Of a DNA stretch of 20,881 nucleotides, positions 4,208-20,116 are shown piece by piece (the stretch's first letter is position 1; every line of letters starts with the position of its first letter). The position numbers were made by a program, and so were the translations under genes. This DNA comes from a virus. The DNA lies in the IMG/VR virus record IMGVR_UViG_3300021962_000783, positions 1 to 20,881 of that record. One strand, written 5' to 3'. The notes under the pieces were generated by a model. The model did not search any database, was not told where the DNA came from, and saw only the letters and a program-made list of their open reading frames with translations.

Positions 4208-4828
4208 TTAGAAAATAAAACTTGTTGCCATAATTGTACCATTTATCTGTGCCAAAGATGATGTCAGTGCATATTTTGGATAATAAATACCTAAATTAAG
4301 CAATGTATCTAATTCATACGCAGAAACTCTTCTTTCAATATCCGCCACCACTACATCTCCAATTGGACCAACTGGACCTTGTGTTCCTTGTGGCCCTGGA
4401 TCTCCTTGCAAGCCCTGTGGCCCTCTTACATTTCCTTGCAAAACCCAGGTTGTTGTTGATGCACTATATACATAGTACTCTCCAGTATTTAGGTTTATAA
4501 AATTATCGCCTTCAATTAAATTAGTTAGTCCTGCATTTTGAGGAATTGATTGAGCTGTATATGTCTTTGTTCCTCTTGTACCTGGAACGCCTGGAGATCC
4601 AGTTTCTCCAGTTAAACCTTTTGGTATTGCAAAATTTAAAATAGCTGCTGTTGCTGTACCAGCATTTGTAATTGATGGATTGGCTGCTGGAGATAAAGAT
4701 GTTACAGTTCCTACAGATATAGTTGCTGCAGTTCCAGCTGGTCCCTGTGGACCAGTTGCTCCTGTAGGGCCAGGTCGAGATCCTGCTACGACTACCCATT
4801 CACTTCCGTTATAGCGTTTTAATGACAT
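4208..4828 (-). CDS. Collagen-like tail-fibre protein
   Basis: This 206-residue protein opens with a YNGSEWVVV beta module like those ending modules in neighbouring fibres. It then has three collagen-like Gly-X-Y tracts: residues about 19-33 (GPTGATGPQGPAG), 71-87 (GLTGETGSPGVPGTRG) and 135-156 (GPQGLQGDPGPQG and on). Beta-rich linkers separate them. The C-terminal ~50 residues have no repeats and probably form a trimerisation or tip region. Most prolines are in the X position, but G-S-P, G-V-P and G-D-P place proline in Y, the classic prolyl-4-hydroxylase site. The ribosome site GGAGAGG lies 9 bases before the ATG. Collagen-like phage fibres are well known; the receptor is unknown. Confidence 0.8.
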   Translation of the reverse strand: MSLKRYNGSEWVVVAGSRPGPTGATGPQGPAGTAATISVGTVTSLSPAANPSITNAGTATAAILNFAIPKGLTGETGSPGVPGTRGTKTYTAQSIPQNAGLTNLIEGDNFINLNTGEYYVYSASTTTWVLQGNVRGPQGLQGDPGPQGTQGPVGPIGDVVVADIERRVSAYELDTLLNLGIYYPKYALTSSLAQINGTIMATSFIF

Positions 4829-4867: not shown

Positions 4868-6937
4868 TTAAACGCCAGCCCATATTAATGCTTCTGAATC
4901 AAAAGTTGGAAATATCTTGATCCATTGACCTGCTGCTGCTACGTATAAAGAAGCCTCTGAAGAAACGTATGCTATCATTCCGCCGTGCAAAGATGCTGTT
5001 GGCAAACTGGCATAGTCTGTTATTTGTGCTGCATTATTTTTAAACAAATCAGAATAAGTTATTTCGCCTTCTTCTGTTGTTAGATCTAGCCAAAATTCTG
5101 TTTGAGATGGGCTTGGTGGTGTTGTAGAAGACAAAATTGATTGACCACTTGTGTCGTCAAGATCTACCCAGAAGTCTCCTTCAATTGCAGTGTATGTAGG
5201 TGGCTCCTCATCTGAATAAATTAAAGGAAGATCTGGCTCATCTGTGTCTATCCACAGAGTGTCTAGTCCATATGTTCCCTCTGCTGGAGGATTAGGTCCC
5301 GCAAAAACAAATTCAGTAGAGCCTGCATCATCGTCAACATCTATCCAAAGATCACCTTCTGTTGTGGCTCCAGATGGCGGTGCAACTAATCCAACAAAGA
5401 ATGAACTTGGTGGTAATGATGTATCTGTTGGAAGTAACGCTAAACCTCCGCCTCCGCCTCCTTCTCCTTGAATATCTTGCCAAAGCAAACCATCCCAAAC
5501 TTTTAGTTTGTCTAACGGCTTGTTGTAATAAATTTGCCCTTCTACTGGACTTAAAGGTGCTGCATCAAGACCAATAATTATTCCATTAGTAAAAGTATTT
5601 TTAGATGTCCATGTGTTTGTTGTAGAAAGAGATAGGTCTGTTGCTATATACTCCCAAGAAGATGATAGCGCATTCCATACTTTTAATGCTCTAGTGTTTC
5701 CACTTCTATACTCATCTGTGTCAAACCAAAATTGTCCATCTATAGGATTTGTTGGTGCGGATGCAGACATTATAGCAGTTGATGGAGGAACATAAGCCTC
5801 TAATATCATCTTATTGGCTTCGTCATCATAGGTAACAGATATATTTGGATTTAAGCCATGTGCAAATAGAGGACCTATTGCATCCTGTACTTGTTCTTGG
5901 GTTAATTGAGCTACTGCGGTAAAATTAATTTTTCCAGTTACATCATCATAGGATGCAGTTAAATTAGTGTGTGTTCCAGAAGTTATTAGGCCTGCTGCCA
6001 CGTCTTGAATTTTTTCATCAATATCAAGTTCGCTTAAAGGAACTTTGCCATTTTCGTCAAGTGTAGCTATTCCATCTGGTTGACCAACTTGTGAAATTGG
6101 AACATATGTCTGAGCAGATGTATTGCCAAGCGCTGAGACTGCTGCGTCTGTATATGCTTTTGATGACGCTAAAGCTGTAGATATGGCTGTTGTTATTGTT
6201 GTTGAAAAATTTGGGTCATCATTAATTGCTGCAGCTATTTCGTTTAGGGTATCTAGTAGAGCTGGAGATGTATCAACTAAATTTGCAATTGCTTGATTTA
6301 CGTAGGCTTGGCTTGCTATGGTATTTGTATTTACTGCAATAGTAATTGATTGAGAAAAGTTATATAAAGACCAAGAGGCGTTTGTTGCTCCGCCTGGCTC
6401 TGGTGGATACCCAGGGTTGCTTGGGTTGCCTGTTCTTATAAAATAAGATCCTACTATTCCATAAGGACTTCCTTCTGGAATACTTACTACATCATTAAGA
6501 GCATAAGAATATCCATTGTCATAATCTCCTAGGTAGTTGGGTGGATTTTGGTTATATGTTTTTGTTATACCTGATCCAGCTGTTAAAGCATTTGCAACTG
6601 CAGAAATTGCTTCTTGATTATCATATGTTCCTGTTAAATTAATTTTTCTTGCATTATCATCATATGAAACTGTTATGTTTGTATGAGAGCCAGAAGTTAT
6701 GAGGCCTGCCGCTAGGTCTTCTATGGCATCTACGTTTAAATAATTATTTTCTAAAGATCTTACTTTATAGTCTAGGGAGTTGGGGTTAGATGAGTTATCT
6801 GCTCCGACTTTTTGTTCAAGTGCTTCAATGGCATCATTTGCGTCAGCGTGTTGCTTGGCATGGGGAACTACCTCAACCGAGTCAAGTGGTTGTGGGTTAA
6901 CTAAAACGTCTAGATTTGCTGGGAAGCTTGTTGCCAT
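4868..6937 (-). CDS. Long repeat-containing tail-fibre protein
   Basis: This is a 689-residue protein. Domain order: an N-terminal segment with LDYKVRSLEN; a repeat near 75-103 (LAAGLITSGSHTN..SYDD), repeated near 312-341 and again, more divergent, near 352-381; an insert at 137-192 with RTGNPSNPGYPPE, shared with the plus-strand collagen-like protein; a helical module 217-257; a module 258-305 (KAYTDAAVSALGNTS ... GIATLDENGKVP). After these come about six tandem beta repeats of the form P-P-x-EGD-x-W-x-D-x-DD between about 390 and 625. A GEGGGGGG hinge sits at 491-498. Both the helical and KAYTDA modules recur in the 10755-12068 fibre. The many Asp clusters could bind metal ions. The ribosome site is AGAGGTG. 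A fibre role is inferred from architecture. Confidence 0.75.
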   Translation of the reverse strand: MATSFPANLDVLVNPQPLDSVEVVPHAKQHADANDAIEALEQKVGADNSSNPNSLDYKVRSLENNYLNVDAIEDLAAGLITSGSHTNITVSYDDNARKINLTGTYDNQEAISAVANALTAGSGITKTYNQNPPNYLGDYDNGYSYALNDVVSIPEGSPYGIVGSYFIRTGNPSNPGYPPEPGGATNASWSLYNFSQSITIAVNTNTIASQAYVNQAIANLVDTSPALLDTLNEIAAAINDDPNFSTTITTAISTALASSKAYTDAAVSALGNTSAQTYVPISQVGQPDGIATLDENGKVPLSELDIDEKIQDVAAGLITSGTHTNLTASYDDVTGKINFTAVAQLTQEQVQDAIGPLFAHGLNPNISVTYDDEANKMILEAYVPPSTAIMSASAPTNPIDGQFWFDTDEYRSGNTRALKVWNALSSSWEYIATDLSLSTTNTWTSKNTFTNGIIIGLDAAPLSPVEGQIYYNKPLDKLKVWDGLLWQDIQGEGGGGGGLALLPTDTSLPPSSFFVGLVAPPSGATTEGDLWIDVDDDAGSTEFVFAGPNPPAEGTYGLDTLWIDTDEPDLPLIYSDEEPPTYTAIEGDFWVDLDDTSGQSILSSTTPPSPSQTEFWLDLTTEEGEITYSDLFKNNAAQITDYASLPTASLHGGMIAYVSSEASLYVAAAGQWIKIFPTFDSEALIWAGV

Positions 6938-6973: not shown

Positions 6974-7573
6974 TTAAAGGATTGGTATCCACTTATTAGG
7001 ATATTGCCTTTCAAGCATTGAAAGTGGGGCAATGCTAAAGGACAGGACCTTTGTATCAGAACTACCATATACTATTTTTTTACTAGATTCAAATAGCAGC
7101 AGGGATCCAGTCGCCGAGGACTCTTGAATATCATTAACCGTTACTTTGCTTTCGTTACTTGATTCAATAAAATATAGACCAGAAAAACACGGAATACCAC
7201 CTCCACCAATGTCATACCAAACGTCTGTGCGAATTTCTTCAGAGTATGAAGAGGATATATAATATGGCACATTTTTATTTATTCCATAATAGGAAAGGGC
7301 ATCCTTAAATAAAGAAGATATCTCCTTTAATAAATCATGCATTTGTTTATTATATGAGGCTAGGTAGTTTTTTGCATTTGGGTCCTCAACTGGTATAGAG
7401 CCAATAAACTCTGCCTTTAGTCCTCCAGTAAATCTATATACGTGGTCTAGGGGTGTCTTATTTTTTATAACATCTTGGATAACATTGTCTAATTTTAAAT
7501 TAGACTTAAAAATATAAAAAGGCTTTGTTTGTTTATTTATTAATAACTTTTCTGATTGACTAGAATTAATCAT
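6974..7573 (-). CDS. Hypothetical protein, possibly a degenerate 2OG-oxygenase-fold protein
   Basis: This 199-residue protein matches no family I can name with certainty. Its second half follows the strand order of phage 2OG-Fe(II) oxygenases: VWYDIGGGG, SGLYFI near 131, GSLLLFESSKKIVYG near 156-170, then LSFSIAPL. The positions where that family has the HxH/HxD iron ligands read GGGGIPC, and the distal His position reads KIVYG. If the fold is right, the iron site is lost. The start overlaps the stop of the GNAT-like gene by 8 bases, with ribosome site AGGTGG. It sits between the long fibre and a cluster of enzyme-like genes, so a fibre modification, chaperone or structural role is possible. 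Fold assignment is weak. Confidence 0.6.
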   Translation of the reverse strand: MINSSQSEKLLINKQTKPFYIFKSNLKLDNVIQDVIKNKTPLDHVYRFTGGLKAEFIGSIPVEDPNAKNYLASYNKQMHDLLKEISSLFKDALSYYGINKNVPYYISSSYSEEIRTDVWYDIGGGGIPCFSGLYFIESSNESKVTVNDIQESSATGSLLLFESSKKIVYGSSDTKVLSFSIAPLSMLERQYPNKWIPIL

Positions 7574-8105
7574 TTATTCCACCTATTCTTTGCTCATACC
7601 AAATTACTGGAGATGTAGGATCCCTTGGAGGTTCCTGTTCGTTCATAAAAAACCTTCCATTCATAATTGGAGAGTTTGGGTTATTATGTTTTAATACTTT
7701 TGAAATATTTTTATAGAACTTATTTGCAACTGGGCTTCTATTTCTTGAACCTTCTATAACAAGATTAAAGTTTGTATAAAAAACAGACCTTAAAAGTCCA
7801 GCTAGGTATTTCCAGTACCCACGTCTTCTGTATATGGGATTTGTATACATTCTATCTGATACAAAGCTGTCGCCTTCAACTTTTTGTAAGGTATACATAT
7901 CTGGATATTTATTGCTAACAAATTCAGAAACTATAATAGTTCCCTTTGGATAAGTATTATCTTTGTACATAGATATGGATAGGCTTATAACACTTCCATT
8001 AATAAAAGAAGCATGTATCCAGGAGTCTCCCAACTCTGAAGGATACTGAGATAATTCAACTAGCGAGATCCCGTCTATTTCTACGGCATTTAGAACCGTA
8101 CTCAT
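7566..8105 (-). CDS. Probable GNAT-like N-acetyltransferase
   Basis: This is a 179-residue protein. A hydrophobic strand-rich first half is followed by the GNAT-type acetyl-CoA loop in NPIYRRRGYWKYLAGLL near residues 88-104. The R-R-R-G matches R/Q-x-x-G, but the usual following G/A is a Trp. A later ANKFYKNI segment resembles GNAT motif B. GNAT enzymes transfer acetyl from acetyl-CoA to amines; the substrate here is unknown. The gene starts 2 bases after the Hint-protein stop, without a strong ribosome site, so translation is probably coupled. It also overlaps the next gene by 8 bases. Its place inside a fibre block suggests acetylation of a virion protein or host surface target (inference). 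Confidence 0.5.
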   Translation of the reverse strand: MSTVLNAVEIDGISLVELSQYPSELGDSWIHASFINGSVISLSISMYKDNTYPKGTIIVSEFVSNKYPDMYTLQKVEGDSFVSDRMYTNPIYRRRGYWKYLAGLLRSVFYTNFNLVIEGSRNRSPVANKFYKNISKVLKHNNPNSPIMNGRFFMNEQEPPRDPTSPVIWYEQRIGGIND

Positions 8106-8107
8106 TT

Positions 8108-9028
8108 TTAAATTGATACAGAATCGTGAACAAGCATATGCTCTGTAAAGAATATGTCGTATGGTTCGCAGTTTATAGATATAACCTCATGTGGAATGTC
8201 TGCAACCTGAATATCTACAATTTCAACCCAATTACTATCTGCTAAATCATAAACAAGGTCTGAATAAATTACCTCTGTAGATAAAACAAATTTAGAAACA
8301 CCTTCTCTTTTTATAAAGATATAGTGTGTGTCAGAAAATACATCTCCATTAATTAAAACACCTCTTGCAGAGGTTCTTCTATTTAAACTAACAATTGTTG
8401 TTGTTGTTTCTGATACAGAAGGGTCTATTGCGGTCCAATCTAGTGCTTGTTGTGCTGTGTTTAATAAGCTGTCATACGGAAATCCCTGTATGTCTGCAGA
8501 AACTAACGTATCTCCTACTTGTAGGTCTTTAGCAGGAACCAGCCCGTTTGGCGTAATTATTAAAGTAGTTATCCCAATTGATTTTTGTGGAGGGGTAAAA
8601 TTTAAAGGTGGAATATCAATTGGTGGTGATTCTGGTGGCGCATTAAAGTATGGCGGAGCATTATCGTATGGTGGTGGGTTAGAATATGGATTGTAGTATA
8701 CGTTATCATATGGCGGCGGATTACTATATGGATTATAGTATGGATTATAATAAGGATTATAGTAAGGTGCAACATATGATCTAAAAACAAAATTTACTGT
8801 AGATCCGATTGTGACAGTTGTGCCTGCAGGAATACTTTGAGTAGAAAGAATTCCATCTAAACCAGAGTCTGATGTGCTTTCAGATGATTCAGAGTAGCTT
8901 AAACCTACATTTAATAATGCCGCTTGAGCTGCTAATCTTGAAAGGCCCGTAAGGTTAGGCACATTAACTTTTCTAGATCCAAATTTTGCTTTTTTAAGTT
9001 TTGCAACTATCTTTTTGCCTTTTGCCAT
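8108..9028 (-). CDS. PASTA - Tyr/Pro/Asn repeat - Hint domain protein
   Basis: This 306-residue protein has three parts. Residues 1-20 are Lys-rich. Residues about 21-83 form a PASTA-like domain (VPNLTGLSRLAAQAALL ... IPAGTTVTIGSTVNFVF), a fold that in other proteins binds peptidoglycan. Residues 87-140 are a repeat linker built from YYNP and a 14-residue unit, YYNPYSNPPPYDN plus one residue, present twice at 97-124. Residues about 150-302 look like a Hint (Hedgehog/intein) domain: TPNGLVPAKDLQVGDTL at 159-175, TH at 234-235, and the ending FFTEHMLVHDS. The first Hint residue aligns with Ser150 instead of Cys, the penultimate is His301, the last is Asp302 instead of Asn, and Ser303 follows. 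No signal peptide is seen. The ribosome site AGGGAGG is strong. Autoprocessing is possible but unproven. Confidence 0.75.
   Translation of the reverse strand: MAKGKKIVAKLKKAKFGSRKVNVPNLTGLSRLAAQAALLNVGLSYSESSESTSDSGLDGILSTQSIPAGTTVTIGSTVNFVFRSYVAPYYNPYYNPYYNPYSNPPPYDNVYYNPYSNPPPYDNAPPYFNAPPESPPIDIPPLNFTPPQKSIGITTLIITPNGLVPAKDLQVGDTLVSADIQGFPYDSLLNTAQQALDWTAIDPSVSETTTTIVSLNRRTSARGVLINGDVFSDTHYIFIKREGVSKFVLSTEVIYSDLVYDLADSNWVEIVDIQVADIPHEVISINCEPYDIFFTEHMLVHDSVSI
8657..8740 (-). repeat. Two 42-bp tandem repeats encoding the Tyr/Pro/Asn linker
   Basis: Two imperfect 42-bp units encode a 14-residue YYNPYSNPPPYDN-type repeat, and extra YYNP units continue to about 8764. The copies differ at several bases, mostly silent, so the peptide is conserved more than the DNA. 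Such a track can vary in copy number by slippage. Confidence 0.8.
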
Positions 9029-9412
9029 TTACTTTGCCTCCCTGTATCCGATAGCAGCATTACCTGCAGGGACTCTTATAAAATTAAATACTCTTGGTCC
9101 ATCATGCCGTGGAATTAAATTATTTTTTTCTATTTCATTATAAACATCTTGAATACTTAAAAAACTACCATTATTTTGTAAGCTATTAAATTCTTTTACT
9201 AAATGGTTGTGACTGGACAAAGCATCTTCTTCATTTAAATAATACTTAGAATATAAAATTGCTAGCTGCCTGACTCTTCCTTTTTCATCACACTCAAAAA
9301 CTGCAGTTTGATATTTACCAGCCGCTGTTTTTATTGTCTCTAAAAGCAAATGTGTATCTGGAAATAAGAAGATGTCTTCGTGCTGCCATCTGACTAACGT
9401 TGGATCATGCAT
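9029..9412 (-). CDS. Hypothetical protein
   Basis: I do not recognise this 127-residue soluble-looking protein. The start chosen is the ATG at 9412 rather than an in-frame GTG 24 bases upstream. AGGAG lies 8 bases before this ATG, and the ATG shares a base with the TAA stop of the preceding gene (TAATG), the junction used repeatedly here. Visible features are an aromatic/acidic beginning (MHDPTLVRWQHEDIFLFPD), a charged middle and the end GNAAIGYREAK. No zinc, nucleotide-binding or membrane motifs are seen. It lies between the PASTA-Hint protein and the protein with the dUTPase-like motif, in a cluster of non-fibre genes. Confidence 0.7.
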   Translation of the reverse strand: MHDPTLVRWQHEDIFLFPDTHLLLETIKTAAGKYQTAVFECDEKGRVRQLAILYSKYYLNEEDALSSHNHLVKEFNSLQNNGSFLSIQDVYNEIEKNNLIPRHDGPRVFNFIRVPAGNAAIGYREAK

Positions 9413-10137
9413 TAGGAATACTCCTTTTTTTGCCACTTTTCTTTTTTATAAAATCCTGAAAATAAATTCATTCTTTTTTCTTGTTCTTTTTGGCCTTCGT
9501 ACCTCAAAGATAGATTTTTTTCTGAAATCCAAGGTTCTCTTTTTATTGGAATAATTTGATATATTGGAGTTCCTTTTGATATTATACCTTCAAATCCTTC
9601 TTTTAGGTGAAAGCTTATATTTCCTGGAGAAGAGTAATGGTCTGTATCAATAATTGCAGATGGTGTTATAAACGGAAGCTCTGGTCTATTCATTGGGCTA
9701 GTTAATATACAAGACCATCCTGGTGGGGTTTTGATGCCCCACTGCATAAGCCAAGCAAAGTGTTTTGAAGAATATCCTAGCGATGTATCAATTTCATCTC
9801 GGTTTCTTACTTGAATAGGATTTAATGGGGATCTCCATTTAGCATATTGCTCACCATTTTTTATAGTTATTTGTATGTCACAATGTAGCTCTTGAATATA
9901 TCCTGCAGTCATTGCGTCAAAATACGGTATGCAGTGCTTAAGTCCAGTATTTGGAACTGCGTTTCCAGCATCGTCCTTGCCGTATAGCACAAGATCTTCT
10001 GATCCAACATATCTTGGTTTATCTTTCCAGCTTGCAGGAATATGTGATTTTGCCAATGATGGCATTTTAGAAACGTTTTCTGCTAATTCGCTCCATGAAT
10101 AGAATTCTATTTTATTAACATTTGTTTTACTTTTCAT
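9412..10137 (-). CDS. Conserved phage-type protein with a dUTPase-like motif (possibly DUF6065)
   Basis: This 241-residue protein has a layout I associate with an uncharacterised phage family, possibly DUF6065: HCIPYFDAMTAGY at 68-80, WGIKTPPGWSCILTSPMNRPE near 133-153, IIDTDHY at 162-168, and KGTPIYQIIPIKREPW at 188-203. The pair IIDTD-Y plus G-T-P-x-x-Q-x-I resembles the GVIDxDY and G-x-R-x-A-Q motifs of trimeric dUTPase/dCTP deaminase folds, but the other dUTPase motifs are not evident. The start overlaps the oxygenase stop by 4 bases (ATGA), so the two are coupled. The C-terminus is Lys/Glu-rich. Function is unknown; a nucleotide-related or sugar/fibre-related role are both open. Confidence 0.7.
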   Translation of the reverse strand: MKSKTNVNKIEFYSWSELAENVSKMPSLAKSHIPASWKDKPRYVGSEDLVLYGKDDAGNAVPNTGLKHCIPYFDAMTAGYIQELHCDIQITIKNGEQYAKWRSPLNPIQVRNRDEIDTSLGYSSKHFAWLMQWGIKTPPGWSCILTSPMNRPELPFITPSAIIDTDHYSSPGNISFHLKEGFEGIISKGTPIYQIIPIKREPWISEKNLSLRYEGQKEQEKRMNLFSGFYKKEKWQKKEYS

Positions 10138-10751
10138 TGAGGAAGCCTATCTTTATGTGACTCAAAATACGTGTAAAACATATTTACAGTATATCTGCAT
10201 CCTTCTTCTATTTTTCTTACGCCGTGTGCATGGTGCTTATCTCCTGGGAAAAAGGCTAACATTCTTTTTTTAATCTCTATTATGTGATCATGTTGTGGGA
10301 AATAAATTTGTCCGCCCTTAAAGTCATCATTTAAATAAAGAACAACTCCAATATCTCTCCAGTTCCAAATATGTGGCTCTCTACCAAAATTTTCATAGTC
10401 TGAATGAGGAGGCTGCTCTTCTCCCAGCGGCCATCTAATTAAGTTTAATGAATCTGCATAAATATCTTCTTTTAGATTCCAGGTTTCAATAATTTTTTCT
10501 CTAATTCTTTTTCTAATTGATATGCATAGATTCATTATCTCAAGATCTTTTGGATTATTAAATCCTTTTTCTGGTACGGTAAGATTTATAACGCCTAGGA
10601 ATCTTTTTGACCAGTGCTGGCTTGGATCGCTTTTAATATCACTCTTATCCCACAAATCATTATCCGTTAAATACTTTTCATAATCCAATATAGCGTTACA
10701 TTCGTCTTCTGATATAAAATCATATACAACGGTGATGTCTTCTTTTGCCAC
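10134..10751 (-). CDS. 2OG-Fe(II) oxygenase, prolyl-4-hydroxylase type
   Basis: This is a 205-residue protein. The enzyme family couples oxidation of 2-oxoglutarate to hydroxylation of a substrate, using iron. Ligands visible are H116-x-D118 (PPHSDYENFG) and a distal His in HHAHGV, most likely H176. R186 in GCRYTVNMFYTYF is the expected 2-oxoglutarate-binding Arg. The GGQIYFPQ segment and FFPGD also match the family. Length is usual for phage members. The start is a GTG 3 bases after the stop of the fibre gene; no better start is near. It overlaps the next gene by 4 bases. Substrate is unknown. Its position between fibre genes, in a phage with collagen-like proteins, makes a fibre protein a candidate (inference). 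Confidence 0.88.
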   Translation of the reverse strand: MAKEDITVVYDFISEDECNAILDYEKYLTDNDLWDKSDIKSDPSQHWSKRFLGVINLTVPEKGFNNPKDLEIMNLCISIRKRIREKIIETWNLKEDIYADSLNLIRWPLGEEQPPHSDYENFGREPHIWNWRDIGVVLYLNDDFKGGQIYFPQHDHIIEIKKRMLAFFPGDKHHAHGVRKIEEGCRYTVNMFYTYFESHKDRLPQ

Positions 10752-10754
10752 TTC

Positions 10755-12068
10755 TTATACCGCCAAGTCTCCGAGTATAACCCAACTATTTAAACCTCTT
10801 TTTAATAGCGTTGCGCTTGCCCATTGTGTACGCAATTTTAATCCTGGTGTTGCATTTGGTGTAAATCCATTTCCAGCAATTGTAACCTGAGAAGATCCTG
10901 TTTGAAGAATATCTATGGAACATCCGATAGGGAATGCTGCTGAGTCTGTTATTGTAACAGTACCCCCATCTGGCATTTCTATAATTTTATTAATGTCTTC
11001 TGGAATAGTTGTATAATTGCCAGAGACAACCTTAATCAATGTGTCGTTTTCTAATGAGCCTATGATTGCACCTTTCATGCTTGAGTGAAATTGGCAAGCA
11101 TAATATAATGAGCTTGGTCCAGATATGCTGTAATCAAAAACAATAATCCCATTATCTGTTCCACCATTTGTTATTCCTGTGCTATAAACATCGGCTTCTG
11201 AATATCCGCCAGGTACTGTTTGAATCCAAAATGGGTGCCCTACGGCGTTTATCTTAATAATATATTTTTTACCTTTTACAAAATACATGTTGCCATTTAA
11301 TACACCATTAACTATATATCCGCCAGTTCCTGAATTTGTAATAACATAATCAAATGATTGATCAGAAATATTTAACTTTAAATCTAGAGCTGCTTGTTGT
11401 GCAGTTGAAACAGGTTTACTTACATCTAGTGTGTTGTCTACGCTTCCAAGTCCGACCATTGCTTTTGTAATTCCGCTTACTGTACCAGTAAATGTTGGAT
11501 CCGCAATTGGTGCTTTAAGAGAAAGTGATGTTGTAATTGATGTTGCATAAGATGCATCATCTGCTAAGGCTGCTGCTAACTCGTCTAGAGTATTTAATGT
11601 CTCTGGTGCAGAATTAATAAGATTTGCAATTGCTGTTGAAATTTTTGAATCTGCTGCGGTTCCTGCAGCAATTACAGCTGCATCAATTGCTGCGGCTGCG
11701 GCTGAAGAAACCTCTGTATCTCTAGCTATTCCTGAAGGAATTTCTGAGTCTGGTATTTTACCATTGCTATCAAGTGTTGCAATACCATCTGCAACGCCAA
11801 CTTGCGATACTGGAACATAGCTTGCATCTGAAGTATTTCCTAGTGCAAATATTGCTGCGTCCGTATATGCTTTTGCAGAGTCAAATGCAAATGTTAGATC
11901 GCTTAAATTAGCATGAAAAAAATAAAGATCAGACCATAAAGATGTTCCGTTTCCAAATTTTATTTTACCTAAAGTTGTATCAATGCCAAGTTCGCCTTGA
12001 GCTAATGGTACTGTTGATGCAGCCCATTGTGCACTAGTGCCTCTTTTAATTCTTATCTTAGTTGCCAT
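10755..12068 (-). CDS. Tail-fibre protein with Mtd-like N-terminus and cupredoxin-like domain
   Basis: This is a 437-residue protein. Residues 1-50 (IKRGTSAQW ... LAQGELGIDTTLGKIKFGNG) match the N-terminal module of major-tropism-determinant-type fibres. Residues 64-110 and 146-184 are modules also found, in the opposite order, in the 689-residue fibre. Residues 185-232 form a PTFTGTVSG / VGLGSVDNT stalk-type module. Residues about 238-337 look like a cupredoxin: GHPFWIQTV gives H278, and YYACQFHSSM gives C325, H328 and M331, the complete type-1 copper ligand set. Residues 345-437 form a C-terminal beta domain. The gene starts with TAATG coupling to the upstream 101-residue gene. The fibre role is well supported; copper binding is predicted from motif only. 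Confidence 0.85.
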   Translation of the reverse strand: MATKIRIKRGTSAQWAASTVPLAQGELGIDTTLGKIKFGNGTSLWSDLYFFHANLSDLTFAFDSAKAYTDAAIFALGNTSDASYVPVSQVGVADGIATLDSNGKIPDSEIPSGIARDTEVSSAAAAAIDAAVIAAGTAADSKISTAIANLINSAPETLNTLDELAAALADDASYATSITTSLSLKAPIADPTFTGTVSGITKAMVGLGSVDNTLDVSKPVSTAQQAALDLKLNISDQSFDYVITNSGTGGYIVNGVLNGNMYFVKGKKYIIKINAVGHPFWIQTVPGGYSEADVYSTGITNGGTDNGIIVFDYSISGPSSLYYACQFHSSMKGAIIGSLENDTLIKVVSGNYTTIPEDINKIIEMPDGGTVTITDSAAFPIGCSIDILQTGSSQVTIAGNGFTPNATPGLKLRTQWASATLLKRGLNSWVILGDLAV

Positions 12069-14952: not shown

Positions 14953-14980
14953 ATTCTACCATACTAGGCAGATATGTCCA
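14953..14980 (-). promoter_or_regulatory. Promoter of the holin-like gene
   Basis: TGGACA (five of six bases match TTGACA) at 14980-14975, a 16-base spacer, and TAGAAT at 14958-14953 with an upstream TGG extended element. The -35 lies inside the end of nrdJ. The -10 and its TGG are identical to those of the nrdJ promoter. Confidence 0.65.
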
Positions 14981-16898
14981 CTATCTCACAATTTCCATCG
15001 GAAGTACAAGCAAGAGTGGCATTAGTTGAGGTTCCATCTTCTGTTTCATAGAATGATAAATCTTCCCACCGAATGTTGTTGGGCATTTTTGCAACAAGCG
15101 CATCATACTCTGACTTATCAACTTCTTGATATGGGGCTTGCTTATATGTGTGGTCTGAGTGTGGTAGGAATGAAATTCCTGATACCTCATCAAAATGTTT
15201 GTAAACCCAAGCGCCAACTTCCATCCATTCATCTTCCTTTACAGAAACTGTAATTGATGGCTTATGCTCACACCATGCACGTTGGTAAACTAACCATGTA
15301 TTTAAATGGTCCAACGCCGTTAAATCATTTCTGACAATTGCACCTTCTGGTGCTTTTACTGGAAATGAAAATACATAGGTGTCGTTTGGCTTCATTACGT
15401 CGTCTTCTACTGGAATCCCCACCTCTTTAAGGAAAGTAGAAATTGGATCTCCTTTAGATCCACGTACTGTGCGAATGTAATATGGTGAATGCCAAGGGTG
15501 CATTCCTGAAGATACTCCTACTAATTGAGATACTGTTCCCGAAGGCTTTACGCAAGTAATTGCGGCTGATTCTGGGATTCCAATTTTTTCAGATTCTGCT
15601 TTATTAATTTCTCTTGCCTTTTCACGCATAGACATTAAAAATGCCTCAAGTGCAATAATGTCTTCTTTGCCAGACATGAACTTGTGTCCGAACTGACCAG
15701 TTAAAGAAACTCCAAGCAACCGCTCTTCTTCTGTATTGTCTTTCCAAATTTTTCTAAGGTACTTAAAGTCTGTTAAAGTTGATTGCCAGGTGCCAAGTAT
15801 GGTGGCAAGTTCTACTTTTCTTTGAATATCCTTCTTTGTATCTTTTTCACGTAATACGACTTCTGAAAGGTTACAAAACTGATAAGGACGTAAGATAATC
15901 TCTGAGCAGGGGTTAGTTCCGTAGTGAATATCTGGATCTCTTCTGCCAAATTTAGCTGCCTGCGCTTGTGCTGCTGCAACATTATAGATTCCACGTTCTC
16001 CTGATTTAGAGTCATAAAGGTTTTTCCATTCTGCTATAAATTGCTCCATCTCTGGCTTGCGAGAATATGCAACAGAGTTATTTGAAAGTGCACGTTGTGT
16101 ATTATTTTCCCACCAGTTACCTGATTTTGCTGCGGCCATTTCAATGTCATTAATATTAGAAAGAGAAATCATTGCAGAACGTCGAACTCCACCAACTACA
16201 ACCACTTCTCCAATTTTACACATAATATCATGTGCTTCAATTGGCTTCAATTGGCGACCTGCTGCATTTTTAAACTTTGCAATTGTAAAATCAAATAAAT
16301 TAATTAATGGTTGTGGTCCAGATGATCTTCCGCCCATTGTCTTAAGACGTGCACCTGCTGGGCGTACCTTACTAACATCGATTGCTGGAATATGTCCAGT
16401 CCAAAGAAGTGCTAAAAGTTCACGATATGCTTTTGCCCAACCCTGCTTAGAATCTTCTACAACAATTACTGTATCTGACTTTTCAAATGAATCTGGGACG
16501 GCAGGAAGTTTATTAACATATTTATATTCAACAGAAAATCCAACACCTGTACCGCACATAAGGATATACATAGTTTCGTCAAATGATCTTGGATTGTCTA
16601 CTGGAACAAATGAGCAATTGTATCCTGCAACATTGTCTCTTTCTAGTGCAGCTCCAGCAGTCATTACTGATCGCATAGAGGGCATAACATTTCTTTGGAA
16701 TACACCGTCTTTTAATTCCGCTACAAGCTTCTCATCTGGAATATAATTATGGTTTTCTTTTAGATGATTTAACATAAAGTCAAAGTATCTATCTACTGTT
16801 TCTCCCCAAGTCTCACGTCGGTTTTCTTCTGGGATCCAACGTGCATATCTTGATAATGCAATAAAATTTTCATATGGGTTAGCAATAGTCTTTGACAT
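14964..16898 (-). CDS. nrdJ: Adenosylcobalamin-dependent (class II) ribonucleoside-triphosphate reductase
   Basis: This 644-residue enzyme reduces ribonucleotides to deoxyribonucleotides for phage DNA synthesis, using adenosylcobalamin to generate a thiyl radical. Visible motifs: GYNCSF with C95 (first redox Cys); NPCSEI with C331 and E333; FCNLSEV with C342, whose 11-residue spacing from C331 matches C408/C419 of the Lactobacillus enzyme; KPSGTVSQLVGVSSG at 451-465; and a C-terminal pair C631/C637 (CTSDGNC) that would re-reduce the active site. The length is shorter than the roughly 740 residues of the Lactobacillus form. It has its own promoter and no cobalamin riboswitch in the short leader. 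It is a monocistronic or two-gene unit with the holin-like gene. B12 must come from the host. Confidence 0.95.
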   Translation of the reverse strand: MSKTIANPYENFIALSRYARWIPEENRRETWGETVDRYFDFMLNHLKENHNYIPDEKLVAELKDGVFQRNVMPSMRSVMTAGAALERDNVAGYNCSFVPVDNPRSFDETMYILMCGTGVGFSVEYKYVNKLPAVPDSFEKSDTVIVVEDSKQGWAKAYRELLALLWTGHIPAIDVSKVRPAGARLKTMGGRSSGPQPLINLFDFTIAKFKNAAGRQLKPIEAHDIMCKIGEVVVVGGVRRSAMISLSNINDIEMAAAKSGNWWENNTQRALSNNSVAYSRKPEMEQFIAEWKNLYDSKSGERGIYNVAAAQAQAAKFGRRDPDIHYGTNPCSEIILRPYQFCNLSEVVLREKDTKKDIQRKVELATILGTWQSTLTDFKYLRKIWKDNTEEERLLGVSLTGQFGHKFMSGKEDIIALEAFLMSMREKAREINKAESEKIGIPESAAITCVKPSGTVSQLVGVSSGMHPWHSPYYIRTVRGSKGDPISTFLKEVGIPVEDDVMKPNDTYVFSFPVKAPEGAIVRNDLTALDHLNTWLVYQRAWCEHKPSITVSVKEDEWMEVGAWVYKHFDEVSGISFLPHSDHTYKQAPYQEVDKSEYDALVAKMPNNIRWEDLSFYETEDGTSTNATLACTSDGNCEIVDISA

Positions 16899-20025: not shown

Positions 20026-20041
20026 AGATTTCCTGACATTG

Positions 20042-20116
20042 TAGGGATACTGGGATTTGAACCCAGAGTCGTTTGTATATAAGACAAATGCTTTAACCAG
20101 ATTAAGCTATATCCCC
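20042..20116 (-). tRNA. tRNA-Ile(UAU), reading AUA codons
   Basis: The cloverleaf is complete. Acceptor stem GGGGATA/TATCCCT (first pair G-T), D-arm GCTT/AAGC, anticodon stem TTTGT/ACAAA with loop CTTATAT, variable loop of 5, T-arm CTGGG/CCCAG with loop TTCAAAT, discriminator A. Anticodon TAT decodes AUA directly. The 3' end is followed by CAA, so CCA is not encoded. Bacteria normally read AUA with a CAU tRNA modified to lysidine by TilS; this phage supplies a different tRNA. In the lysozyme-like gene five of nine Ile codons are ATA. Total length is 75 bases. Confidence 0.92.

Follow-up and report, generated by a model that had tools for sequence, protein, structure and literature searches.

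The virus record IMGVR_UViG_3300021962_000783 carries, between two of its fibre genes, a cassette of six genes (g1 to g6) that is the subject of this analysis. The window analyzed is the whole 20,881-base record fragment, and the cassette was read from the sequence of what is a freshwater-type phage. All six genes lie on the minus strand, tightly packed between the fibre genes, and they include a 2-oxoglutarate (2OG) oxygenase, g1, and a protein, g4, in which a PASTA domain, a repetitive linker, and a Hint-like domain follow one another. The features to which the text refers are as follows.

10755 to 12068, minus strand: upstream flank, fibre gene with an Mtd_N domain (PF18454, E 1.8e-12); hotspot border by synteny
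10134 to 10751, minus strand: g1, 2OG-Fe(II) oxygenase of prolyl-hydroxylase type (2OG-B family), GTG start
9412 to 10137, minus strand: g2, DUF6065-like / phrog_7084 protein with a dUTPase-like fold
9029 to 9412, minus strand: g3, small protein; open reading frame (ORF) open from 9436, likely start ATG at 9412
8108 to 9028, minus strand: g4, PASTA - (YYNP/PPPYDN)n linker - Hint protein, candidate substrate
8783 to 8968, minus strand: PASTA domain of g4, residues 21-82
8582 to 8770, minus strand: Pro/Tyr/Asn-rich tandem-repeat linker of g4, residues 87-149, from sequence and composition
8123 to 8581, minus strand: Hint-like domain of g4, residues 150-302, with Ser at position 1, ending in LVHD followed by Ser 303
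7566 to 8105, minus strand: g5, 179 amino acids, GNAT-like by eye only
6974 to 7573, minus strand: g6, pseudo-oxygenase
4868 to 6937, minus strand: downstream flank, fibre gene (tail fibre PHROGs); hotspot border by synteny
4208 to 4828: collagen-like fibre protein (PF01391, E 1.4e-6)
14964 to 16898: class II ribonucleotide reductase (RNR)

The order and spacing of the genes agree with the initial annotation, which had described a block with overlaps or gaps of a few bases at most and fibre genes on both sides. g1 starts 3 nucleotides downstream of the upstream fibre gene (12068-10755), g2 and g1 overlap by 4 nucleotides (ATGA), and the g3 start at 9412, which matches the MHDP at which its homologues begin, overlaps the g2 stop codon (TAATG). 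g4 directly abuts g3 with no gap, g5 begins 2 nucleotides after g4, g6 and g5 overlap by 8 nucleotides, and the downstream fibre gene begins at 6937. The G + C content of the cassette is 0.341, compared with 0.379-0.392 in the flanking fibre genes. The long fibre block on the minus strand is preceded by a strong terminator-like hairpin (14642-14615, 11 pairs), and between 4700 and 14600 terminator-like sites are no more numerous than in shuffled sequences, so the fibre genes and the cassette may form a single transcript.

The domain structure of g4 is important for what follows. Its PASTA domain, already proposed in the initial annotation, is clearly recognized (E 1.9e-9), and the DNA encoding its linker contains tandem repeats with units of 12-42 bp (8661-8767). 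The Hint-like domain matches the Intein_splicing and Hint_2 profiles weakly, with a Pfam score below the cut-off; it contains Ser150, SDTH, HD, and Ser303, and aligned relatives of g4 carry the canonical Cys1, TFEH (the TxxH block), and HN. The weak profile matches, together with homologues that retain the canonical Cys1 and HN, support the earlier Hint assignment.

For g1, profile searches matched PF13640 (E 1.9e-8, above the cut-off) and phrog_61 (E 8e-17), and alignment showed that the HxD...H iron triad and the distal Arg for 2-oxoglutarate are kept and are invariant across seven homologues, in agreement with its identification as a 2OG oxygenase. The closest solved chains, among PDB sequences, are prolyl 3-hydroxylase 1 (P3H1; E 1e-6) and a bacterial prolyl 4-hydroxylase (P4H; 1.4e-3), and a g1 profile finds the same two at 1.7e-11 and about 3e-7; entries for P3H1 and P4H are the only PDB matches. 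By these similarities, g1 appears to be a peptidyl-prolyl-hydroxylase-like 2OG oxygenase, for which prolyl hydroxylation would be the expected reaction. A second 2OG family, found in related cassettes, is closest to P4H, P3H1, and PHD2. The profile match of g6 to an intact 2OG-like family (E 3e-8) bears out the description of g6 as a degenerate oxygenase: aligned with intact homologues that have HxD/H, it lacks the HxD/H, the His, and the Arg, and is presumably an inactive homologue of 2OG-like enzymes.

The suggestion that g5 is GNAT-like was not confirmed, since neither g5 nor a homologue matched GNAT or any other family in Pfam or PHROG, and an AlphaFold model built from 8 sequences reached a pLDDT of 36. 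Acetylation by g5 would depend on that label. Single-protein scans with g5 and g6 found no relatives, and both were recovered only as neighbours of g2 homologues; tblastn searches with g3, g5, and g6 against 50,697 phage records gave no match.

A dUTPase-like motif had been noted in g2, and this is correct at the level of the fold. The AlphaFold model has a pLDDT of 95.7 and its best structural matches in the PDB are dUTPases (Z 10.2, 121 aligned residues, 4.7 A). By sequence, g2 matches phrog_7084 (E 8e-29) and, at E 4e-4 and 20.5 bits, under the curated cut-off of 26.6, DUF6065 (PF19541). Two stretches conserved in the family alignment, IIDTDHY and GTPIYQIIP, resemble by eye dUTPase motifs 3 and 4, and motifs 1 (Mg-binding) and 5 (C-terminal) were not recognized by eye in the alignment or consensus. 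A search of PDB sequences with the family profile found no match, dUTPases included, and the kinship with dUTPases therefore rests on the fold and the motif-like stretches. Homologues of g2 also occur as divergent tandem copies; 50 of the 81 loci hold 2-4 of them. This, along with the lack of a sequence match among solved dUTPases, indicates that g2 belongs to a family separate from dUTPases: it resembles the dUTPase / dCTP deaminase superfamily in fold and in the two stretches, and differs from it in being multi-copy, fibre-linked, and without a PDB match by sequence profile.

The g2 family is widespread and often present without the other cassette genes. One scan recovered at least 586 viral stretches with a homologue, and 49 records of haloarchaeal tailed viruses also have one. 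In HSTV-2 (L010), HJTV-2 (L011), and HF2 (L012; L numbers denote compared loci), the homologue adjoins the fibre/adhesin end of the tail module, on the opposite strand, and in HJTV-2 and HF2 it is also near RNR. Homologues in rhizobia are often near a gene for a secreted subtilase-type protein (for example L110:6934-8367), with this cluster present in 18 of 39 loci.

The site between the two fibre genes is a hotspot at which the cassette is exchanged. In L017, L015, L002, L039-43, and others, the flanking genes are homologous to those of the window and in the same order, with different content between the border fibre genes. At the DNA level, L143 and L132 are 87-92% identical upstream, have nothing detectable in common within the cassette, and are about 75% identical in the downstream fibre gene. 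To avoid selection on the cassette itself, 80 loci from 31 lineages were fetched by means of an upstream gene. Some of their hotspots contain nothing of this kind, some have g2 homologues and no more, and in others there are PASTA-repeat proteins accompanied by 2OG enzymes, g5, g6, and g3. Within this set, a PASTA/FN3-repeat protein was present in 9 lineages, of which 5 had 2OG genes, and 0 of the 22 lineages lacking such a protein had a 2OG gene (p 7e-4). In L155, L160, L168, and L191 the same hotspot holds arrays of six ORFs of about 109-138 amino acids instead of enzymes.

The whole block or a portion of it recurs at this position in many further phage lineages, which indicates that the grouping is more than chance. 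The initial annotation had named scattering of these genes far from fibre genes as the observation that would count against a common role, and the comparison was mostly favourable to such a role, since relatives keep the genes together at a single position flanked by the two conserved fibre genes. Large phage genomes also carry 2OG genes far away from this site.

The gene content of the cassettes follows the type of linker and C-terminus in the g4-like protein. This was examined in 36 non-redundant repeat/PASTA proteins drawn from all locus sets and classed by linker and C-terminus, with simple ORF calls as the gene calls in the compared loci. The third of these sets was fetched by the PASTA domain, using a scan alignment of 8 of its 12 members, as the full 12 were too diverse. 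Where the linker is of the PPPYDN/YYNP type, g3 is present in 8/8 cases (0/28 elsewhere) and a g1-type gene in 8/8 (1/28 elsewhere), and this pairing holds for proteins with a PASTA or an FN3 head and with a Hint or a Cys-rich tail. A tree of PASTA domains divides the PPPYDN linkers between two distinct sets with support, the first including the window g4, L209, L210, and L223, and the second L015 and L251; L009, with a PPPYDN/YYNP-type linker behind an FN3 head, provides a third background. These observations suggest that the pairing of linker and enzymes persisted through changes of head and tail.

A different part of the cassette follows the C-terminus. Whatever the linker, a Hint domain ending in HDS is accompanied by g6 in 15/17 proteins (0/19 of the others) and by g5 in 10/17 (0/19). 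Other linkers have other partners: a family termed 2OG34 with FGFTP / FYHGF linkers (9/11 vs 0/25), a family termed 2OG20 with NPGF / PPV linkers (6/6 vs 3/30), and the GT60 glycosyltransferase with YYAP linkers (3/3 vs 0/33). PASTA proteins without a repeat linker (L149, L224, L232, and L233) have no such enzymes beside them. The g4 of the window combines a PPPYDN/YYNP linker with an HDS-type Hint domain, and its cassette consists of exactly g1 and g3 (with g2), and g5 and g6. That the window holds the sum of both matching gene sets is the main argument for assigning g1 and g3 to the linker and g5 with g6 to the Hint domain. On this comparison of sequences, the six genes are best described as two putative sub-modules.

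The loci compared thus show an association of the enzymes with the g4-type architecture, from which we infer the modification chemistry. We consider it probable that the exchangeable cassette makes and finishes one fibre-associated protein, g4. In such a scheme g1 would hydroxylate residues of the Pro/Tyr/Asn linker, most likely prolines, assisted by g3 and probably by g2, which is less likely to be a nucleotide hydrolase than a partner in binding, assembly, or scaffolding. With g5 and the pseudo-oxygenase g6 as putative partners, the Hint domain may cleave the protein, or transfer its PASTA-linker part via an ester formed on Ser150. The finished, modified repeat stalk would become part of the tail-fibre apparatus, and a swap of cassette would change the surface chemistry of the stalk. 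A shared role in fibre modification had been proposed from the tight linkage of the six genes. It is supported by the way in which the cassette genes vary with linker type and C-terminal type in the PASTA/FN3-repeat protein, with the qualification that the genes split into two sub-modules and that g2 stands apart. The target would be a fibre-associated protein, but probably the cassette's own g4 and not the flanking fibres.

Several observations weigh against this interpretation. Homologues of g2 are indifferent to linker type (7/8 vs 17/28). The linker and C-terminal classes were set after the sequences had been seen and the lineages are partly related, so p-values serve as guides. Proteins with Pro-rich repeats in L221, L225-227, and L222 have no intact 2OG gene as a neighbour, although the L221 and L225 records do carry 2OG genes elsewhere. 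Linkers of the FYHGF type are almost free of proline, from which it follows that proline is not the target in all cassettes; in some, Tyr, Phe, His, or Asn may be modified instead. A raw threshold of proline density is related to the presence of 2OG genes only at p 0.003-0.08, which points to linker type, and not proline content, as the useful variable.

Other explanations of the locus have to be set against these data. It is conceivable, if unlikely, that the targets of the enzymes are other fibre proteins encoded in the block, such as the collagen-like fibre close by. A role of this kind has been proposed for viral prolyl 4-hydroxylases, and a virus-encoded P4H has been reported along with viral proteins containing hydroxyproline (Eriksson 1999, as cited in PMC9301287). 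However, GXY runs of 6 or more occur in 3/5 lineages with 2OG and 8/26 without, which is no association; prolines at the Y position are nearly absent from the GXY repeats; and the type of oxygenase tracks the g4-type linker instead. A collagen-like fibre as the target is thus not supported, as GXY repeats do not follow the oxygenases. The hotspot could also simply collect ordinary moron insertions, with linker and enzymes found together merely as co-moving neighbours. Exchange at this site is clear and the low G + C content of the cassette relative to its flanks would fit, but we regard this account as improbable because the match between linker and enzymes persists while the PASTA/FN3 head and the Hint/Cys-rich tail change, the hybrid g4 of the window is accompanied by both matching gene sets, and the linker-less PASTA proteins have no enzymes.

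An action of the cassette genes on nucleotides or DNA is suggested by the dUTPase-like fold of g2, by the RNR gene in the window and those near g2 homologues in the haloviruses HF2 and HJTV-2, and by a further match of g1 to phrog_2297, annotated as 'DNA endonuclease'. Phage sets of 2OG enzymes and glycosyltransferases can, moreover, build modified bases. Such an action nevertheless seems very unlikely, given that multiple divergent tandem copies of g2 are unlike a housekeeping dUTPase, that g1 has peptidyl-prolyl hydroxylases as its nearest solved relatives, and that gene content tracks the repeat type of a fibre-like protein.

The interpretation of g4 as the protein finished by its own cassette gains from the extra enzymes of related cassettes, namely Trp halogenase, GT60, APS kinase, and sulfotransferase. 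The neighbours of viral g2 homologues include several 2OG families, Trp halogenases (PF04820, E 1.9e-100), and GT60 GlcNAc transferases (PF11397, E 4e-26), along with an SDR, a methyltransferase, and a small CxxC protein. Across 50 whole records, a g2 homologue was within 3 kb of 15 of 16 Trp halogenase genes (6.1 expected, p 2e-4) and of 11 of 13 GT60 genes (3.2 expected, p 2e-4). Proximity was weakly significant for 2OG genes (14/37, 8.8 expected, p 0.025), with no significance for them among records at least 40 kb long. In L003, L034, L035, L037, and L063/L065, one or two Trp halogenase genes adjoin g2 homologues, often with a c22-type gene (phrog_17480).

Sulfation of fibre repeats is possible at L009:1137-6474 and L072:379-7170, where the enzyme genes adjoin those of (YYNP)n or (PFFPP)n repeat proteins. 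L072 has a sulfotransferase gene (PF03567, Sulfotransfer_2; E 1.4e-5), and L009 has an APS kinase match (PF01583), with an L072 protein that starts alike by eye. A protein of L009 was also considered as a sulfotransferase, and had no database support; only that of L072 is supported.

In L218/L219, L017, and L018, PASTA-(PQYYAAP/PYYAP/PYHAP)n-Cys-rich proteins are encoded beside GT60 genes. As their repeat units have neither Ser nor Thr, the GT60 acceptor would be tyrosine or hydroxyproline. We tentatively propose a wider, modular system, plausible though far from secure, in which a low-complexity stalk and its matching enzymes (hydroxylases, halogenases, glycosyltransferases, a sulfotransferase, and a dUTPase-fold helper) would be swapped jointly at one hotspot, changing fibre chemistry as a unit, with some PQYYAAP stalks glycosylated on tyrosine or hydroxyproline.

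Modification of virion proteins by virus-encoded enzymes is already known; here it would take place through an exchangeable cassette matched to its presumed substrate. In the Mimivirus system, collagen lysyl hydroxylase and glycosyltransferase are one fused enzyme. There a viral enzyme hydroxylates and glycosylates a viral fibre protein, which is the likeness to the present proposal, but Mimivirus is a giant virus and its modification is of collagen lysine by that single protein. In the Skp1 pathway, a prolyl hydroxylase acts before a GT60 GlcNAc transferase (Pfam PF11397). The GT60 genes of related cassettes recall this pathway, whereas the window has no GT60 gene, and the GT60 genes beside YYAP linkers in L017, L018, and L218/L219 have no directly neighbouring 2OG gene. 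For the Chlorella virus PBCV-1, a prolyl 4-hydroxylase and viral proteins with hydroxyproline are known (Eriksson 1999, in the account given by PMC9301287). It resembles the present case in its virus-encoded 2OG prolyl hydroxylase and in virus-encoded Pro-rich repeat proteins as likely substrates, and differs from it as an algal virus with no exchangeable cassette in a tail-fibre operon, no Hint/PASTA protein, and no known co-variation of enzyme and repeat.

Prolyl-hydroxylase-like 2OG proteins are present in cyanophages, in which Trp halogenase genes are likewise unexplained (PMC2984593), and a survey of the Baltic Sea described the viral use of prolyl 4-hydroxylase as 'cryptic' (PMC9301287). 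The 2OG-Fe(II) oxygenases of phrog_61 are structurally like EGLN3 and reported to be widespread among marine phages, without a named substrate (PMC12774648); g1 resembles this group in its profile match and its prolyl-hydroxylase-like character, and differs in that a specific substrate class is proposed here. Among the papers searched, none tied such enzymes to fibre-repeat proteins or mentioned DUF6065, and none dealt with Hint or PASTA domains in phage fibres. As the substrates of the widespread prolyl-hydroxylase-like 2OG enzymes of aquatic phages are not known (PMC12774648, PMC9301287), the locus is of value in naming a concrete, testable class. If the proposal is correct, phage fibres would carry hydroxylation, and perhaps sulfation, halogenation, and glycosylation, as determined by the exchangeable cassette present, and this level of fibre variation is overlooked by genome annotation. 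The widespread, little-studied DUF6065-like proteins also gain a fold and a genomic setting.

Elsewhere in the window, a small protein encoded at 20172-20612 matches the TipAS antibiotic-recognition domain (E 2e-10), and its gene adjoins a predicted tRNA-Ile(tat) at 20041-20116.

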